A DNA stretch of 43,125 nt from Parcubacteria group bacterium Gr01-1014_29 (GTDB lineage: Bacteria > Patescibacteriota > Minisyncoccia > Ryanbacterales > 2-02-FULL-48-12), in the NCBI GenBank assembly GCA_007376195.1, contig VMFT01000011.1:1-43125 (forward strand), given 5' to 3'. Shown piece after piece: positions 6,675 through 42,674 of this stretch (within the stretch, counting starts at the first letter, position 1; each line of letters begins with the position of its first letter). Under the pieces are notes generated by a model. That model did not search any database and was not told the DNA's origin. It was given only the letters and a program-made list of their open reading frames with translations. A program made the position numbers and the translations under genes.

Positions 6675-8447
6675 TCAGGGACGGTGTTTCAATACCCGCA
6701 CATACACCTCCGGCGGAATATAAACTCTACCGGCCGCTTTGAGGCGTTTTTTGCCTTCTTTTTGTTTTTTCCAAAGTTTCATCTTGCGACTGCGGTCACC
6801 GCCATACAAATATCCCGTAACATCCTTCTTTAAGGCAGAGAGCGTCTCGGAAGCAATAATACGCCCGCCAACCACCGCTTGTATTTTTACCTGGAACATC
6901 TGGCGCGGCAGCGTATCTTTCAAAAGCGTTACAAGGGCACGCGCGGCAAAAGACGTCTTTGCCTGCGACACAATGCGCGCAAGCGGCGGCACCGGCTCAT
7001 CCGCAACACGGACTTCAACACATTCCACATGAGCGTCTCGCATGCCTGCCGGCTTGTATGAAAGCGATGCGTACCCCGACGTAACACTTTTGAGTTTGTC
7101 AAAAAAATCGGATACAACTTCACGAAGCGGCATCTCGGCGCGCAGTTTCATGCGTACGCCATCTGCGGCGGTATGCCTGCCTACACTGAACGGCTCCGAT
7201 ACCACCAGCACGCCTTCGTGTATATCAAGAAGCGTCATGACATCGCCCAAATATGTATTGGGGACAATTATCTCCGCAGACATCCATGGTTCGCGCACGC
7301 TGATAATCTGGTCTTTTGATGGAAACTTTGCCGCCGAAGACACAATTTCCATCGAACCGTCTTTTTTTGTTATTTCATACGCAATGGATGGGCTTGCGGT
7401 AACAACAGAAATGGAAAACTCGCGCCGCAACCGCTCCGTAACAATCTCCAAATGCAGCATCCCGAGAAACCCGCAGATAAAACTGCGTCCCAGCACCGGC
7501 GATGACTCCGGCTCAAACGTTAACGACGCATCGTTGAGGCGCAATTTGCCAAGCGCATCGCGTAAGACTTCATAATCTTCTTCGTGTTCCGGAAAAAAAC
7601 TTGCCCAGAGCACTGGTTGCGGGTCGCGATACCCTGATAACAACTCTAAACCTTGCGCTTTTTGTAAATCTGCCGGCCCAACGGTATCGCCAATACGCAC
7701 GCGCGTGGGATCTTTAATACCCGTTACAATGTAGCCAATATCCCCGGCCGAAAGAACCGGCACACTCGTAAGAGCGGGCGAAAATATGCCTACATCTTTT
7801 ACCTCAAAAGGAGTGCCTGACACAAACAATTTTGCGCGCGTGCCGCTTGCAATGGAACCGTCCACTACGCGCACATACGCTATAATGCCGCGATGGCTCT
7901 CAAACAAAGAATCAAATATAAGCGCGCGAAATACTCCCACCCCAACAGGGGAAATTGCCGGCGGCGGCACTTCTTCTACAATGCGCGCCAGAACGTCTAA
8001 AACGCCTGCTCCCGTTTTTGCGGATACCTGTACCACGCGTTCGGGCAAAATGTTCAACAGATCCGCAAGCTCTTCAACCGTTTCCTCCACCCGGGCATCA
8101 GCAACATCAATTTTGTTGACTGCCGGTATGATAGTAAGACCCTCTGCGCTCGCGATATGAAGATTGGTGAGAGTTTGCGCCTGCACCCCCTGCGTGGCGT
8201 CCACTAATAATACCGCCCCTTCCACCGCAGCAAGCGCTCGAGAAACTTCGTACAGCATTCGGACAGGCTGCATTTTTATGGTGATGCCCCGTTCGCGCTC
8301 AAGATCCATTTGATCCAAGAGCTGCGGCTTCATGTTACGCGTCTCCACGGAATGCGTAAGCTCCAATAGACGATCGGCAAGCGTTGACTTGCCATGATCA
8401 ATGTGAGCAATCACCACAAAGTTTCGGATATGATCTGTGTTGTACAT
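6675..8447 (-). CDS. lepA: Elongation factor 4 (LepA), lacking the G3 motif
   Basis: A ribosome-bound GTPase that back-translocates or remodels stalled ribosomes. G1 reads AHIDHGKST, switch 1 RGITI, G4 NKID and G5 SAKTG, and the C-terminal LepA-specific region is complete to the basic tail (KKQKEGKKRLKAAGRVYIPP). Between RMLY and EVSRALAAVEGA the usual block with DTPGH (G3/Walker B and the catalytic histidine) is missing, an in-frame gap of about 23 residues. The rest keeps normal length. ATG at 8447 gives the family N-terminus; GTG/ATG options lie three codons upstream. No ribosome site is clear. Confidence 0.95.
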   Translation of the reverse strand: MYNTDHIRNFVVIAHIDHGKSTLADRLLELTHSVETRNMKPQLLDQMDLERERGITIKMQPVRMLYEVSRALAAVEGAVLLVDATQGVQAQTLTNLHIASAEGLTIIPAVNKIDVADARVEETVEELADLLNILPERVVQVSAKTGAGVLDVLARIVEEVPPPAISPVGVGVFRALIFDSLFESHRGIIAYVRVVDGSIASGTRAKLFVSGTPFEVKDVGIFSPALTSVPVLSAGDIGYIVTGIKDPTRVRIGDTVGPADLQKAQGLELLSGYRDPQPVLWASFFPEHEEDYEVLRDALGKLRLNDASLTFEPESSPVLGRSFICGFLGMLHLEIVTERLRREFSISVVTASPSIAYEITKKDGSMEIVSSAAKFPSKDQIISVREPWMSAEIIVPNTYLGDVMTLLDIHEGVLVVSEPFSVGRHTAADGVRMKLRAEMPLREVVSDFFDKLKSVTSGYASLSYKPAGMRDAHVECVEVRVADEPVPPLARIVSQAKTSFAARALVTLLKDTLPRQMFQVKIQAVVGGRIIASETLSALKKDVTGYLYGGDRSRKMKLWKKQKEGKKRLKAAGRVYIPPEVYVRVLKHRP

Positions 8448-8469
8448 AATACCCATATATTTTGGTTTC

Positions 8470-8709
8470 CTATTTTTGCGCCCACTTCTTCCATTCTTTT
8501 TTCGATAAACCGGATTGTCGAATCATTGTCTCAAAAGTACGCGGTGGAAAAGATTTTCCCGCATGAAAGTTTATACCAACCACACATCCCGTGGAATAAT
8601 TAATCCATGCCTCATGCGAGCCTTCGCGCTCATTATAAAAATCGAAGCCCTTCTCTTTAAGAAAGGCTACAACATCTCTATATGTCCAATTTCTTACTCC
8701 ACGAGGCAT
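8470..8709 (-). CDS. HicA-like toxin (second pair)
   Basis: A 79-residue HicA-type mRNA interferase. The pattern is RDVVAFLKEKGF, then REGSHEAW, in which the histidine matches the catalytic one, and a final NFHAGKSFPPRTFETMIRQSG. It begins inside the end of the upstream antitoxin-like gene (16-base overlap), so translation is coupled. The product lies between lepA and that antitoxin on the same strand. Confidence 0.75.
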   Translation of the reverse strand: MPRGVRNWTYRDVVAFLKEKGFDFYNEREGSHEAWINYSTGCVVGINFHAGKSFPPRTFETMIRQSGLSKKEWKKWAQK

Positions 8710-9068
8710 TCGTTTTTCATAGTACCCAATTCCTTCTTGTCGTCATAAACCAATTTACTATAAATTGTCTGCCATTTTTCTCTCATAACCCTTTCTCTCG
8801 CTGCCTGCTGTAAATAAACAAAATATCTTTTCCAGTATTCAATGGGGGCATACCTATTGAGCAAATCGTCAGAAAGATTTTTGTTTCTTACAACTTTCAA
8901 ATGAAGCCGCGCTGCTTCCACTAAACTGCCCATGAGTTGTTGTGGATCTTTTCCCTCCTCTATAATATCAAAAGTCAGACAAACACCCACATATTTGTCT
9001 TTTTCGGGATACACAAAAAACTCAATCGTACCCTTATTTTTAGTATTTTTCGGCCTCTCTATATTCAT
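8694..9068 (-). CDS. HicB-like antitoxin (second pair)
   Basis: A 124-residue protein whose first half carries the HicB-like half RNase H fold (IEFFVYPEKDKYVGVCLTFD, then a helix QLMGSLVEAARLHL). The C-terminal half is a helical extension. It overlaps the downstream toxin by 16 bases. Position and fold make it the cognate antitoxin. It has weak similarity to the first HicB, so the two pairs are not recent duplicates. Confidence 0.7.
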   Translation of the reverse strand: MNIERPKNTKNKGTIEFFVYPEKDKYVGVCLTFDIIEEGKDPQQLMGSLVEAARLHLKVVRNKNLSDDLLNRYAPIEYWKRYFVYLQQAARERVMREKWQTIYSKLVYDDKKELGTMKNECLVE

Positions 9069-9077
9069 ATTTGTATT

Positions 9078-9329
9078 CTACAACAATAGATATACCGGCA
9101 TATAAGAAACATATTTTTGGGGGATTTCCAACATGGTATATATTGCATCATTCACCATATCAATAAGCGCGGAGAGCGTATCTCCTTCTGTGATGCAGCC
9201 GGGGTAATCAAGAACTTCCGCCACAAAACCGCCATCTTGAGAACGGCGGATGTGTACCTTAACTTCGCGCGGAAACAAAACCCGCAACTGTTTTACTTTT
9301 TCCGTTTCTTTTCTGGTAAGTTTTACCAT
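9078..9329 (-). CDS. Orphan HicB-like antitoxin
   Basis: An 83-residue HicB-type protein: strand VHIRRSQDGGFVAEV followed by DYPGCITEGDTLSALI and a helix with MVNDAIYTML. The DYPGCxTEGD block is the HicB hallmark. There is no HicA next to it; the following gene at 9068 is the second HicB. ATG 9329 is chosen because a promoter places the transcription start at that codon and the family starts there. It could repress, or protect against the neighbouring toxin; untested. Confidence 0.8.
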   Translation of the reverse strand: MVKLTRKETEKVKQLRVLFPREVKVHIRRSQDGGFVAEVLDYPGCITEGDTLSALIDMVNDAIYTMLEIPQKYVSYMPVYLLL

Positions 9330-9335
9330 ATACAC

Positions 9336-9364
9336 ACTATAACCCAAAAGTCTCGCAAGAACAA
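9336..9364 (-). promoter_or_regulatory. Leaderless promoter of orphan hicB
   Basis: TTGTTC (9359-9364 on the minus strand), 17 bases, TATAGT (9336-9341). The expected start of transcription is at the ATG of 9329. Confidence 0.6.
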
Positions 9365-15755: not shown

Positions 15756-15761
15756 GTTTAT

Positions 15762-16245
15762 GTATGCTGGACGGCTACCCCCGCCTTGGCGGGGGAGGAA
15801 AGTCCGGGCACCCTTCCCGACGATGTTGGGACAGAAGAAGGTAACGGCTAACAGCCGTCGTCCGATATACATCGGACCGAGACAGTGCCACAGAAACAAT
15901 ACCGCCAATCATCATGAATGCTGAGTCTAAAGCTCAGCGTAGTGACAGAGGCAAGGGTGAAAAGAGTGGAGTAAAAGCCCACAGACGATATCGGCAACAA
16001 TATCGTGCGGAAAACGCTTACCTGGTGCAAGTCCGCAAGGACGCTTGATTCCAGCAGTAATGCTGGAGCTAGATAGATAACCGTTGCCAACTTTGTTTGC
16101 CGAAGGCAAGTACAAAGTTGAGCATCCGCCGAAGCCTCGTGCGTAGGCGGACCCTCCTTCGCTCTTCGAGCTTCGGAGGGTACTCAATTTTGCAGCTATG
16201 CTTCGCATAGGCAAAATTGGTACAGAACCCGGCTTATAGGCATAC
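15762..16245 (+). ncRNA. rnpB: RNase P RNA (class A) with a core insertion
   Basis: The ribozyme that trims 5' leaders from pre-tRNA. The conserved 5' core GAGGAAAGTCCGGGC and 3' core ACAGAACCCGGCTTATAG are both present, P1 closes with GTATGC/GCATAC, and P2 with GACGGCT/AACCGTT. The cruciform arms between are normal. At 484 bases it is about 100 longer than usual, because about 130 bases holding four hairpins lie between the P2 and P4 3' strands (16087-16220). It has its own promoter and a bidirectional terminator shared with ftsZ. Confidence 0.95.
16087..16220. repeat. Four-hairpin insertion inside rnpB
   Basis: The segment contains four stems in a row: CAACTTTGT/ACAAAGTTG (16088-16120), TCCGCC/GGCGGA (16125-16151), ACCCTCC/GGAGGGT with inner GCTC/GAGC (16151-16181), and CAATTTTGC/GCAAAATTG with inner CTATGC/GCATAG (16185-16219). 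The outer CCAACTTTG and CAAAATTGG can also pair with each other. Confidence 0.7.
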
Positions 16246-16285
16246 AAAAACTCCTCCGACAAAAGTCGGAGGAGTTTTGATTTTC
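16246..16285. terminator. Bidirectional terminator between rnpB and ftsZ
   Basis: CTCCTCCGAC, loop AAAA, GTCGGAGGAG, then TTTTGATTTT on the plus strand and TTTTTG on the minus strand. It ends both rnpB (plus) and ftsZ (minus). Confidence 0.85.
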
Positions 16286-25962: not shown

Positions 25963-26220
25963 ATGCAACTCATTGGTATCATAATTATAGTAATCGCTCT
26001 TGCTCTCTGTTTCCTACGCGTCAAGCAAGACTTTGACTATTGTTTACGCATGTTATGCGTACTTCTCACCTGGTGGGGAATGTTGTTGCTTGACTGTTCA
26101 CCAGACAAATTCGCATGGCAAATGATGCTGGGAACCTCACAACTCTTCACAGTAGTTGGAATTCTGTGCGCCTTAATATCAATTGTACCAGCACTTTTAA
26201 AAGAACCATACAAACGATAG
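25963..26220 (+). CDS. Small two-helix membrane protein, unknown
   Basis: An 85-residue protein with two or three hydrophobic helices: LIGIIIIVIALALCFL near the start, a middle helix (LCVLLTWWGMLLLDC) and LFTVVGILCALISIVPALL at the end, ending in a basic tail. I know no family. AAGGAG lies six bases before ATG 25963, and the start at 25882 would lack any such site. An intrinsic terminator follows and runs into the next gene's ATG. Confidence 0.7.
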   Translation: MQLIGIIIIVIALALCFLRVKQDFDYCLRMLCVLLTWWGMLLLDCSPDKFAWQMMLGTSQLFTVVGILCALISIVPALLKEPYKR

Positions 26221-26268
26221 AAACTCTATACCCTCACAACCATCATCAGTTGTTTGAGTCTTCATTGC

Positions 26269-26294
26269 AAAGGAGCCCGCAAAGCTCCTTTTTT
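26269..26294 (+). terminator. Rho-independent terminator touching the helicase start
   Basis: AAAGGAGC, seven-base loop, GCTCC followed by seven T, and the helicase ATG (26295) follows at once. The 5' arm includes an AGGAG sequence. Confidence 0.75.
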
Positions 26295-28337
26295 ATGTTC
26301 TTAAAAAAGAAGCACAAAAACACTGCACTTGCGAATGAACAATATACTGTGTACACTCCTAACGTGCGCGATGCACAAAAGATAGAACCCTTACTTATTG
26401 CCGGGCTTCACCCCCATTTGTTGGAAAAGCCCGTTTTTTGGTTTCAAAAACAGAAAAAAGAGATTCTCCGCGCGCGTATTATAACGCCATTCTGGCGCCA
26501 CGCGACGCTGGTGGTAGAGCAAGGAATGGCGGCAAAACTTTCAGTTTTTTTGCGGGAACTTCAGGACTTAGGCTACACAAAAGTCCAAACCGTTTTTCAT
26601 CCGGGAGAGTACGCGCATATCGGAGGAGAGATTCGCGTCTATCCTATCAATGAACCGGGTACCTGGCGCATAGATTTTGCGGGGAATGTCATAGAAACAG
26701 TGGAACGTCTGCCTGATACCACTACCGCGCCAGTAGTATCAAACCAACACAAAAAACTCCTAGAACGGCATCGTCTGGGACTTTTAAAGAACGGGGATTT
26801 TGTGGTACATCTCGACCATGGCATTGGAATATTCCGTGGTGTGCTGGAGAAAAACGGAACATCCTACATCGCAATAGAATACGCGCCCGCCCCTTCTTCT
26901 ATTAACCGTCCCGATATGCTCTGGGTGCCGGAAGCGCTCGCGAAAAAAGTTGCGCCGTATATCGGCTTTCGCACGCCAAAAATCCACCGCCTTGGCACAC
27001 CGATTTGGAACGCGGTAAAAAAACGCGCGCGGGAAGATATTATAAAATTCGCGCGGGAACTTTTAGAACTATATGCCAAGCGTGAGGTTGCCGAGCGTCC
27101 CGCCTACGAAGAAGATCCCCTGATGGAACAAGAACTTGCCGCCTCGTTTGTTCACGAAGAAACACCCGACCAAGCACGGGCAGTCGCGGACGTACTTGCT
27201 GACATGGAAAAGCCGCGCCCTATGGATCGACTTCTCTTGGCTGACGTCGGATTCGGAAAAACCGAGGTTGCGGTCCGCGCGGCATTACGCGCCGTCATCA
27301 ATGGCCGGCAAGTTGCAGTTCTGTGCCCCACAACTATCCTTGCAGATCAACATTTTGAAACATGTACCGAACGCCTCAAGCAATTTCCGGTTATGGTAGA
27401 GCGCTTAAGCCGCCTTGAAAAAAACGCGAAACAAAAACAAATCATACAGCGCATCGCCCAAGGAAAAACGGACATCGTCATCGGTACGCATCGTCTGCTT
27501 TCGAAAGACATTAGTTTTGCAAACCTCGGCCTTCTTATTATAGATGAAGAACAGCGCTTCGGTGTCAAGCAAAAAGAGCACATACGGAAACTAAAAGACG
27601 GGGTTGATACCGTATCGCTCTCGGCAACTCCGATACCGCGCACGCTCAATTTCGCGCTCTCGGGATTAAAACCCATGAGTGTCATTACCACCCCGCCCAA
27701 AAACCGTATCGCGCCAAAAACATTCACACTTCCGTTTAGCAAGCAGGTTGTCAAAAACGCCCTACACGCCGAAATCGCGCGCGGCGGGCAGGTATATTTT
27801 CTTTCAAACCATATTCATAAGATGCCGGCATCCCGGGAATTTATCAAAAAAATCGCCCCGCAGGCTCGCGTGGGCATCCTTCATGGACGCATGCGCGAAG
27901 AAGAGATACTCCGCACCATGCGTGAGTTCCGCGAGGGGAAAACTCATATTCTTCTGGCAACAACAATAATCGAAAACGGCCTTGATATCTCAAACGCGAA
28001 CACGCTTATTGTCCAAGACGCCTCGCTCATCGGCCTCTCGCAAGCACACCAGCTCCGAGGAAGAATCGGCCGTGGAGAGACACAAAGCTACGCCTACTTT
28101 CTCTATCCACCGAAGAGACTTACCCAAAAAGCCGAGCGCCGTCTCGAAGCTCTGTTTCGGGCGCAGTATCTTGGCGCAGGACAAGACCTGGCGCTCCGCG
28201 ACATGGAAATCCGCGGGGCAGGAAATATTTTAGGGCGCGACCAGTCGGGCCGCCTAAACCAGATAGGGCTTAATTTATATTGCCAAATGCTTGCAGAAGC
28301 AGTAGAACAAATAAGAGAAAGTTCTCCCCTGAAATAA
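26295..28337 (+). CDS. mfd: Short Mfd-like transcription-repair helicase
   Basis: A 680-residue protein resembling the middle and helicase part of the transcription-repair coupling factor. Order: a degenerate UvrB-like beta domain (GEYAHIGGEIRVYP), the CarD-like RNAP-binding domain (GDFVVHLDHGIGIFRG), then helicase lobes with ADVGFGKTE (Walker A), DEEQRFGV, SATPIPRTL and QLRGRIGR. It ends at the GAGNILGRDQSG block. The N-terminal UvrA-binding part and the C-terminal D7 domain are absent, so it is much shorter than usual (about 1100). The last 113 bases recur at 31050-31162. Confidence 0.9.
   Translation: MFLKKKHKNTALANEQYTVYTPNVRDAQKIEPLLIAGLHPHLLEKPVFWFQKQKKEILRARIITPFWRHATLVVEQGMAAKLSVFLRELQDLGYTKVQTVFHPGEYAHIGGEIRVYPINEPGTWRIDFAGNVIETVERLPDTTTAPVVSNQHKKLLERHRLGLLKNGDFVVHLDHGIGIFRGVLEKNGTSYIAIEYAPAPSSINRPDMLWVPEALAKKVAPYIGFRTPKIHRLGTPIWNAVKKRAREDIIKFARELLELYAKREVAERPAYEEDPLMEQELAASFVHEETPDQARAVADVLADMEKPRPMDRLLLADVGFGKTEVAVRAALRAVINGRQVAVLCPTTILADQHFETCTERLKQFPVMVERLSRLEKNAKQKQIIQRIAQGKTDIVIGTHRLLSKDISFANLGLLIIDEEQRFGVKQKEHIRKLKDGVDTVSLSATPIPRTLNFALSGLKPMSVITTPPKNRIAPKTFTLPFSKQVVKNALHAEIARGGQVYFLSNHIHKMPASREFIKKIAPQARVGILHGRMREEEILRTMREFREGKTHILLATTIIENGLDISNANTLIVQDASLIGLSQAHQLRGRIGRGETQSYAYFLYPPKRLTQKAERRLEALFRAQYLGAGQDLALRDMEIRGAGNILGRDQSGRLNQIGLNLYCQMLAEAVEQIRESSPLK
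28161..28273 (+). repeat. 113-bp direct repeat, left copy (inside the mfd 3' end)
   Basis: From GCGCAGTATCTTGGCGCAGG to AGATAGGGCTTAA. It is identical to 31050-31162 except for one base (28217 G, 31106 A). Sequences just outside differ in both copies while still coding the same motif. Confidence 0.95.
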
Positions 28338-40944: not shown

Positions 40945-41234
40945 ATCTTTCCATTGAGGGCGTGCTGCGTACGCTTTCGGTCAACCTCAATAAACTAATT
41001 CCCCTTCTTGTTCTTGTGGCAACCGCGTTATTTTTATTCGGCGTGGTGCGCTATATCGCGGCGGCGGGTGATGAAGAGAAAACAAAAGAAGCACGGAGGC
41101 TTATTATATATGGCATAATCGGCCTTGCCACAATAATCGCGGTCTGGGGGCTGGTAGCCATCGTTATAGACTTTATTTTCGGCACAAAGACTATCCCCAA
41201 CATTCCGGGTGGAGATGTTGTAAATCCAATATAG
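40941..41234 (+). CDS. T4SS-pilin-like protein 5
   Basis: A 97-residue protein with two helices (LIPLLVLVATALFLFGVVRY; IYGIIGLATIIAVWGLVAIV) and the turn GDEEKTKEARR. The core motif FGVVRYIAAAGDEE is the group signature. It lacks a signal peptide. Confidence 0.8.
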   Translation: MNLSIEGVLRTLSVNLNKLIPLLVLVATALFLFGVVRYIAAAGDEEKTKEARRLIIYGIIGLATIIAVWGLVAIVIDFIFGTKTIPNIPGGDVVNPI

Positions 41235-41332
41235 TGGTGTATTATTTAATTAGGGTGGTGGTTTGTGTATAAAAGGCAATATCTACCAAAGGTCCTATAA
41301 AATTATCAGAATAATTTCCTAAAAGAACAAAA

Positions 41333-41680
41333 ATGAAAACGTTTTTAAGACGAATGGTCCCTGTAGGAGTAGCATTTTTGCCACTTTCTGTGTTCGCGCA
41401 AAATGACCTTACAGATATCTTCGAACGTTTTGGTTCACTTCTTAATGTTATCATCACGGTTCTCATGGTCCTTGCAACCGTTGTATTTCTGTGGGGTATT
41501 GTTAAGTACTTAACAGCAGGAGGAGACGAAGAAAAGATCAAAGAAGCACGGAGCATGATCATTTGGGGCATTATCTTTCTTGCAGTGATGGTTGCGGTGT
41601 GGGCGTTTGTGAACATTGTGCTTGACTTTGTTTTTGGAAATGCAGCAATCCCCGGAGTTCCTATTGGACCGCAACAGTAA
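41333..41680 (+). CDS. T4SS-pilin-like protein 6
   Basis: A 115-residue protein with a signal peptide (VPVGVAFLPLSVFA) and two helices around GGDEEKIKEARS. It is nearly identical to the next gene over the signal and helices, a recent tandem copy. Confidence 0.85.
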   Translation: MKTFLRRMVPVGVAFLPLSVFAQNDLTDIFERFGSLLNVIITVLMVLATVVFLWGIVKYLTAGGDEEKIKEARSMIIWGIIFLAVMVAVWAFVNIVLDFVFGNAAIPGVPIGPQQ

Positions 41681-41755
41681 ATAAATTATCCAACGAAGAT
41701 ATGAATCTTGCAAAAGGTCTCTCGTACAAACAAAATATTGGTATAACTTCTAAAA

Positions 41756-42109
41756 ATGAGTGCACTTTTAAAACGAGTGGTGGTTCTGGTGGGAGTAGCA
41801 TTTTTGCCACTTTCTGTGTTCGCGCAAAATGACCTTACAAATATCCTTGGTGATACTTCTAGCTTTCTCAATCTCGTCATCACATTTCTTGTACTTGTCG
41901 CCACTGTCGTATTTCTGTGGGGTATTGTTAGATATGTGACGGCAGGTGGGGATGAGGAAAAGATCAAAGAAGCGCGGCAAACGATCATCTGGGGGATCAT
42001 ATTCCTTGCCGTGATGGTTGCGGTGTGGGGGTTTGTGAACATCGTGCTTGACTTTATCTTCCAAGGAGAGACAGGAGACCTGTTAATTCCTGTAGGACCG
42101 CAGCAGTAA
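41756..42109 (+). CDS. T4SS-pilin-like protein 7
   Basis: A 117-residue copy of protein 6 (same AFLPLSVFAQNDLT and VVFLWGIVRYVTAGGDEEKI). It differs mainly in the linker after NDLTNI and in the C-terminal tail. A terminator follows. Confidence 0.85.
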   Translation: MSALLKRVVVLVGVAFLPLSVFAQNDLTNILGDTSSFLNLVITFLVLVATVVFLWGIVRYVTAGGDEEKIKEARQTIIWGIIFLAVMVAVWGFVNIVLDFIFQGETGDLLIPVGPQQ

Positions 42110-42148
42110 ACTGCTTCAGATTTCATTGAGATATAAACAAGGAGCCAA

Positions 42149-42172
42149 AAAACCCTTCTCTCGAAGGGTTTT
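42149..42172 (+). terminator. Rho-independent terminator after pilin-like gene 7
   Basis: AAAACCCTTC, TCTC, GAAGGGTTTT; a short T-rich run follows. Confidence 0.75.
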
Positions 42173-42199
42173 GTGTTTCTTTCTTGGTATGCGATAGGG

Positions 42200-42205
42200 T
42201 ATACT
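42200..42205 (+). promoter_or_regulatory. -10 box of pilin-like gene 8 (leaderless)
   Basis: TATACT ends six bases before the ATG at 42212. Confidence 0.5.
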
Positions 42206-42211
42206 AGAAAC

Positions 42212-42511
42212 ATGTCCCAAAGCATCACAATTTCAAGGATTTTTGCGCGCCTTACTGAAATTCTCAACCTTATTATTCCCTTTCTGGTACTACTTGCTAC
42301 CGTCATATTTATCTGGGGAATTGTGCGCTATGTAGCATCAGGAGACAACGAGCAAAAAGTAGAGGAAGCAAAAATCCTCATTATGTGGGGTATTATCGCG
42401 CTTGCCGCCATGCTCACCGTATGGGGATTTGTAAATATCCTTATAAGCGCGCTATTCGGCACAACCAATCTCCCCAACATCCCGGGCCCCGACTTACAGC
42501 CGTTTTTGTAG
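42212..42511 (+). CDS. T4SS-pilin-like protein 8
   Basis: A 99-residue protein with two helices (LIIPFLVLLATVIFIWGIVR; IMWGIIALAAMLTVWGFVNI) and the turn SGDNEQKVEEAK. ATG 42212 is chosen for the box just upstream. A copy-like C-terminus NIPGPD matches protein 5 (NIPGGD). Confidence 0.8.
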   Translation: MSQSITISRIFARLTEILNLIIPFLVLLATVIFIWGIVRYVASGDNEQKVEEAKILIMWGIIALAAMLTVWGFVNILISALFGTTNLPNIPGPDLQPFL

Positions 42512-42602: not shown

Positions 42603-42674
42603 TGGACCTGGCGGGACTTGCACCCGCTTCATCAGGTGCTAACGCTGATATGTTACTGTATACACCACGGGCCC
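42603..42674 (-). tRNA. tRNA-like fold, degenerate (possible pseudo-tRNA)
   Basis: Read on the minus strand, the T arm GCGGG-TGCAAGT-CCCGC and D arm GTGT/ACAT sit at canonical spacing, and the anticodon stem TCAGC/CCTGA has one mismatch. The anticodon loop GTTAGCA would give UAG. The acceptor GGGCCCG/CAGGTCC has a mismatch, and the T loop lacks the normal TTC. An outer 11-bp stem TGTGGACCTGG/CCAGGTCCACA (42601-42611, 42673-42683) competes. Either a worn tRNA or a tRNA-like structure. Confidence 0.4.

Follow-up and report, generated by a model that had tools for sequence, protein, structure and literature searches.

A lepA gene without its G3 motif in a Patescibacteria draft genome: most likely a recent inactivating mutation or an assembly error

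The window analysed here, a stretch of 43,125 nucleotides, comes from a Patescibacteria genome of 1.08 Mb, a 52-contig draft labelled 100% complete. Positions 6675 to 8456 of its minus strand hold lepA, encoding elongation factor 4 (EF4), as a reading frame of 593 amino acids that is in frame, has no internal stop and is the only copy in the genome. The product scores 661.1 bits against the equivalog model TIGR01393, above the cut-off of 533.9, and matches the domains GTP_EFTU, EFG_III, EFG_C and LepA_C, with EFG_III and EFG_C above their cut-offs and GTP_EFTU_D2 falling just under its own. The EF-G-type domains II, III and V are present by domain search and in an AlphaFold2 model, and the LepA-specific C-terminal domain (LepA_C, PF06421, 6.4e-35) is intact at residues 485-590 (6687-7004, minus strand). 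Translation and conservation identify, on the same strand, an intact G1 or P-loop AHIDHGKS (residues 17-24, 8385-8408), G2 RGITI (residues 56-60, 8277-8291) and G4 NKID (residues 114-117, 8106-8117), and G5 was found in the same way. The protein thus shares domain order, G1, G2, G4, G5 and LepA_C with known LepA/EF4 (TIGR01393; PDB 2YWE, 3CB4, 4W2E), and it matches the 4W2E chain with 509 bits, but unlike known LepA/EF4 it lacks strand beta3 and the start of G3/switch II.

Directly upstream of lepA, in a minus-strand locus at 8470-9338, is a HicA toxin-like gene (8470-8709); nearby (9078-9338, minus strand) a HicB-like antitoxin is matched, though below cut-off. Elsewhere in the window, a class A RNase P RNA (15759-16252, plus strand) is 494 nt long against a 367-position model, with about 130 nt extra. 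A Mfd-like protein (26115-28337, plus strand) has only 740 amino acids and falls below the family cut-off; its best stretch covers positions 301-822 of the Mfd model (907 positions), and the usual C-terminal end is apparently missing. At 40984-42456 a unit of about 196 nt occurs in four direct copies, 61-79% alike to the reference and spaced about 400-455 nt apart, which are either small genes duplicated in tandem or an array of repeats. A minus-strand tRNA at 42603-42674 has an Rfam match of 38 bits and none by ARAGORN, and is either degenerate or unusual.

The lepA defect lies at a single junction, Tyr69/Glu70, on the minus strand at 8252-8247, where the codon TAC (8252-8250) is followed at once by GAA (8249-8247). 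The DNA reads CGAATGCTGTAC and then GAAGTTTCTCGA, while the protein reads ...KMQPVRMLY and then EVSRALAAVEGA, or, over a longer span, ...ERERGITIKMQPVRMLY and then EVSRALAAVEGAVLLVDATQ... The initial annotation had reported a LepA without DTPGH at 8236-8290, with RMLY joined directly to EVSR and with the other G motifs and the C-terminal domain still present. The reading frame and the junction DNA bear this out, the junction falling inside that interval, as do the G1, G2, G4, G5 and LepA_C matches. It had put the loss at about 23 residues or 69 bases and proposed an alignment with related LepA proteins; this alignment shows 22 residues in two same-family relatives (L087 and L088) where the window has none, so that 66 nt, with beta3 and DTPGH, are missing in frame, and the loss stands at this slightly smaller size. 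Within the 1.08-Mb, 52-contig genome we found neither another lepA nor a displaced G3 block, a degenerate DTPGHxDF pattern matching only EF-G and BipA, both of which bear the motif. Neither a plasmid copy of lepA nor a viral-contig copy of the junction was found.

The closest intact relatives are L087, L088 and a third genome of the same family, L086, all of which carry the loop and G3 at this site, L086 with a stretch of 50 residues ahead of DTPGH. Among about 105 relatives read, DTPGH with its catalytic histidine was present in all whose sequence covers the site, and every intact relative measured has at least 18 residues where the window has 0. Two apparent exceptions were artefacts of cut reading frames: in L011 DTPGH lies upstream in the same frame, and the sequence of L109 begins at TPGH at the edge of the locus. 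With a probe of 118 residues spanning the junction, we surveyed 380 phylum genomes, of which 320 gave a match, and 384 class genomes, two samples that overlap, and found no other LepA without G3 in either. In the class survey, a site-spanning match above the strict threshold occurred only in the window's own genome. Among the matches listed in the phylum survey, the top ones outside the own genome cross the site and have 18-20 additional residues there; most of the others end at or near the loop. As a detection control, 106 relatives were given the same deletion in silico and scored with phmmer. The simulated deletions gave 153-208 bits and the intact versions 78-134 (at most 133.5) bits, and the best score observed outside the own genome was 124.6 bits; a clade of LepA proteins without G3 was therefore rejected, as simulated deletions would stand out and neither survey contains a member. 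A very divergent lepA can miss the probe: of eight phylum genomes that gave no match, five have a full gene. The survey is accordingly strong at class level and weaker across the phylum as a whole. Ten of the lost columns are near-invariant among 93 non-redundant sequences and the same join occurs in no other surveyed genome, which argues that the junction is not a chance variant. The deletion is thus known from one genome, the nearest comparisons being at the family level and none congeneric.

The loop just before beta3 is an indel-variable place of Patescibacteria LepA. The stretch between the Met-x-x that follows beta2 and EVSR has 18 residues in 30 matches and 22 in 42, with a range of 18 to 58. 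Many Parcubacteria LepA proteins have long in-frame inserts here, of up to about 50 residues and often NSKFEI/SEIRN-like (loci L006/L086, L013, L016, L024, L036, L041, L052, L054, L061, L075, L077 and L107), making the loop an insertion hotspot adjoining the catalytic motif. In 11 of 97 relatives the loop and the YEVSR region share an in-frame microhomology of 6-9 nt, for example ATGAAGT in L088. Since the loop varies in length and short repeats can flank it, replication slippage is a likely route to a deletion. As judged from the window itself, the TAC at the junction is consistent with the microhomology between Tyr codons suggested at the outset. A repeat element at the site was considered as a cause and rejected, the insert of L086 not being a dispersed repeat in the four genomes checked (G000-G003).

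Outside the deletion there is no decay in this lepA. Of 107 near-invariant columns, defined by an identity of 97% or more among the 93 non-redundant sequences, 95 are unchanged in the window, 10 are deleted with G3 and 2 carry conservative changes (I to V at residue 15 and V to L at residue 283). The two pieces of the G domain share identities of 0.83 and 0.71 with L006, against 0.75-0.81 and 0.62-0.66 for relatives among themselves. With the rest of the gene in this state, the deletion would have to be either very recent or absent from the cell.

The missing segment presumably corresponds to about residues 64-86 of E. coli LepA, including His81. In an AlphaFold2 model of the intact L087 protein (43 sequences, mean pLDDT 87.8), beta2 spans residues 59-67, beta3 70-78 and alpha2 begins at 83, and the 22 missing residues map to the loop, beta3, DTPGH and the first turn of alpha2. 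Modelling of the G domain had also been proposed for the window protein; in the resulting model (44 sequences, overall pLDDT 84.0) beta2 and beta3 are not formed and residues 58-71 fall below 50. Values of pLDDT are mostly 57-79 in the N-terminal half of the G domain, compared with 80-94 in L087, and mostly 77-95 in the later domains. In the P-loop GTPase fold beta3 is a central strand of the G-domain sheet and the neighbour of beta1, and its loss should therefore destabilise the domain beyond removing catalysis. The initial annotation had expected poor binding of GTP or a failure to cut it; G3 is indeed gone, and the predicted damage exceeds this, since with the beta2-beta3 hairpin missing one would expect misfolding of the G domain and not a catalytic defect alone. 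From sequence and model, ribosome-stimulated GTPase activity is predicted to be absent.

The E. coli EF4 mutant H81A has lost the same catalytic histidine. Its GTPase activity is not above background and its binding to nucleotide and ribosome is kept (PMC4339808), but H81A is a point change, whereas in the window a whole strand and loop are gone. H81A LepA reaches a normal protein level, yet does not complement lepA-dependent synthetic phenotypes, and deletion of lepA alone causes no obvious growth defect in E. coli (PMC4245954). In an early survey LepA was missing from 1 of 191 bacteria (PMC1780047). Among the Patescibacteria, G035, G053, G096, G118 and G170 gave matches to other translational GTPases but none to lepA above the family cut-off; each of the five is at least 97% complete, and G096 and G118 are single contigs. 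Dispensability in E. coli and absence from several near-complete Patescibacteria suggest that a null lepA is acceptable in the phylum.

The reading that we favour, with a probability of about one half, is that a very recent in-frame deletion of 66 nt struck the single lepA of this genome and gave a null allele. The lost segment would comprise the beta2-beta3 loop, strand beta3 and the start of G3/switch II, and replication slippage that overshot the loop into G3 is a plausible route. Without the Mg-water aspartate, the catalytic histidine and the possibility of a normal G-domain fold, the product would most likely be that of a loss-of-function allele, which the host may tolerate because lepA is dispensable. 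The join is clean and in frame, and the remaining reading frame is open. GyrA, FtsZ, FtsA and HisS in the window each match their family in one stretch. Against a real deletion stands the lack of decay elsewhere, which requires the event to be very recent, and an intact gene with an assembly error would look alike.

Such an error is the close rival, one that we regard as a serious second possibility: a local fault of assembly or gap closing, with the true lepA intact and 66 bases lost from the contig, possibly more if the loop had an insert. The genome is a draft in 52 contigs, the remainder of the gene shows the conservation seen in intact relatives, no other surveyed genome has the defect, and several relatives have long in-frame inserts exactly at this site, where the assembly graph could break. 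De Bruijn assemblers join contigs through a shared word far longer than a few bases, however, and the word shared at the junction is only a few bases long. There is also no long repeat at the junction that could explain a collapse by the assembler, and the insert of the same-family relative is not multi-copy in the genomes checked. Only one chance join in three would preserve the frame, and the G3 piece is on no other contig of the genome. The two alternatives first proposed, an in-frame deletion ruining GTP handling or a loss in assembly, are thus both supported, the evidence being compatible with either.

It is improbable that the gene encodes a retained, functional LepA that is GTPase-dead and binds the ribosome through its C-terminal domains, whether independently of nucleotide or nucleotide-locked. 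The frame, the other G motifs, domains II-V and the C-terminal domain are all kept, and selection for a product still in use would favour just such an in-frame deletion. Yeast Tsr1 offers a precedent: it is reported to be an inactive structural mimic of translational GTPases, having, like the window protein, their architecture without residues for GTP hydrolysis (PMC4895721). Tsr1 is reported to be diverged and essential and to have lost GTP-binding residues as well (PMC4895721), whereas the other GTP motifs of the window are fully conserved, which points to a recent event or an artefact. A pseudo-GTPase of this kind would be expected to have lost GTP motifs but kept the fold, across a lineage; here only G3 is lost, fold damage is predicted and one genome is concerned. 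A long-standing pseudo-GTPase should drift in its remaining GTP-binding motifs, which show no relaxation, and AlphaFold2 gives a disordered edge of the G domain instead of a neat compact variant. The deletion is common to no relative, and in E. coli H81A by itself abolishes LepA function in vivo. Still more doubtful is that the cell makes a stable LepA without beta3 and G3 that works on ribosomes without GTP hydrolysis, which would be a natural nucleotide-independent EF4.

Most likely, then, this is not a new kind of LepA but the product of a recent gene-killing mutation or of an assembly error. If it is an artefact, it illustrates how the loss of a catalytic motif can be mimicked in a draft genome by a clean in-frame join. 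If the deletion is real and the protein retained, it would provide a natural test of the need of LepA for GTP hydrolysis. If, as we favour, the deletion is real and the allele null, it would represent the first step of lepA loss in a streamlined Patescibacteria lineage.
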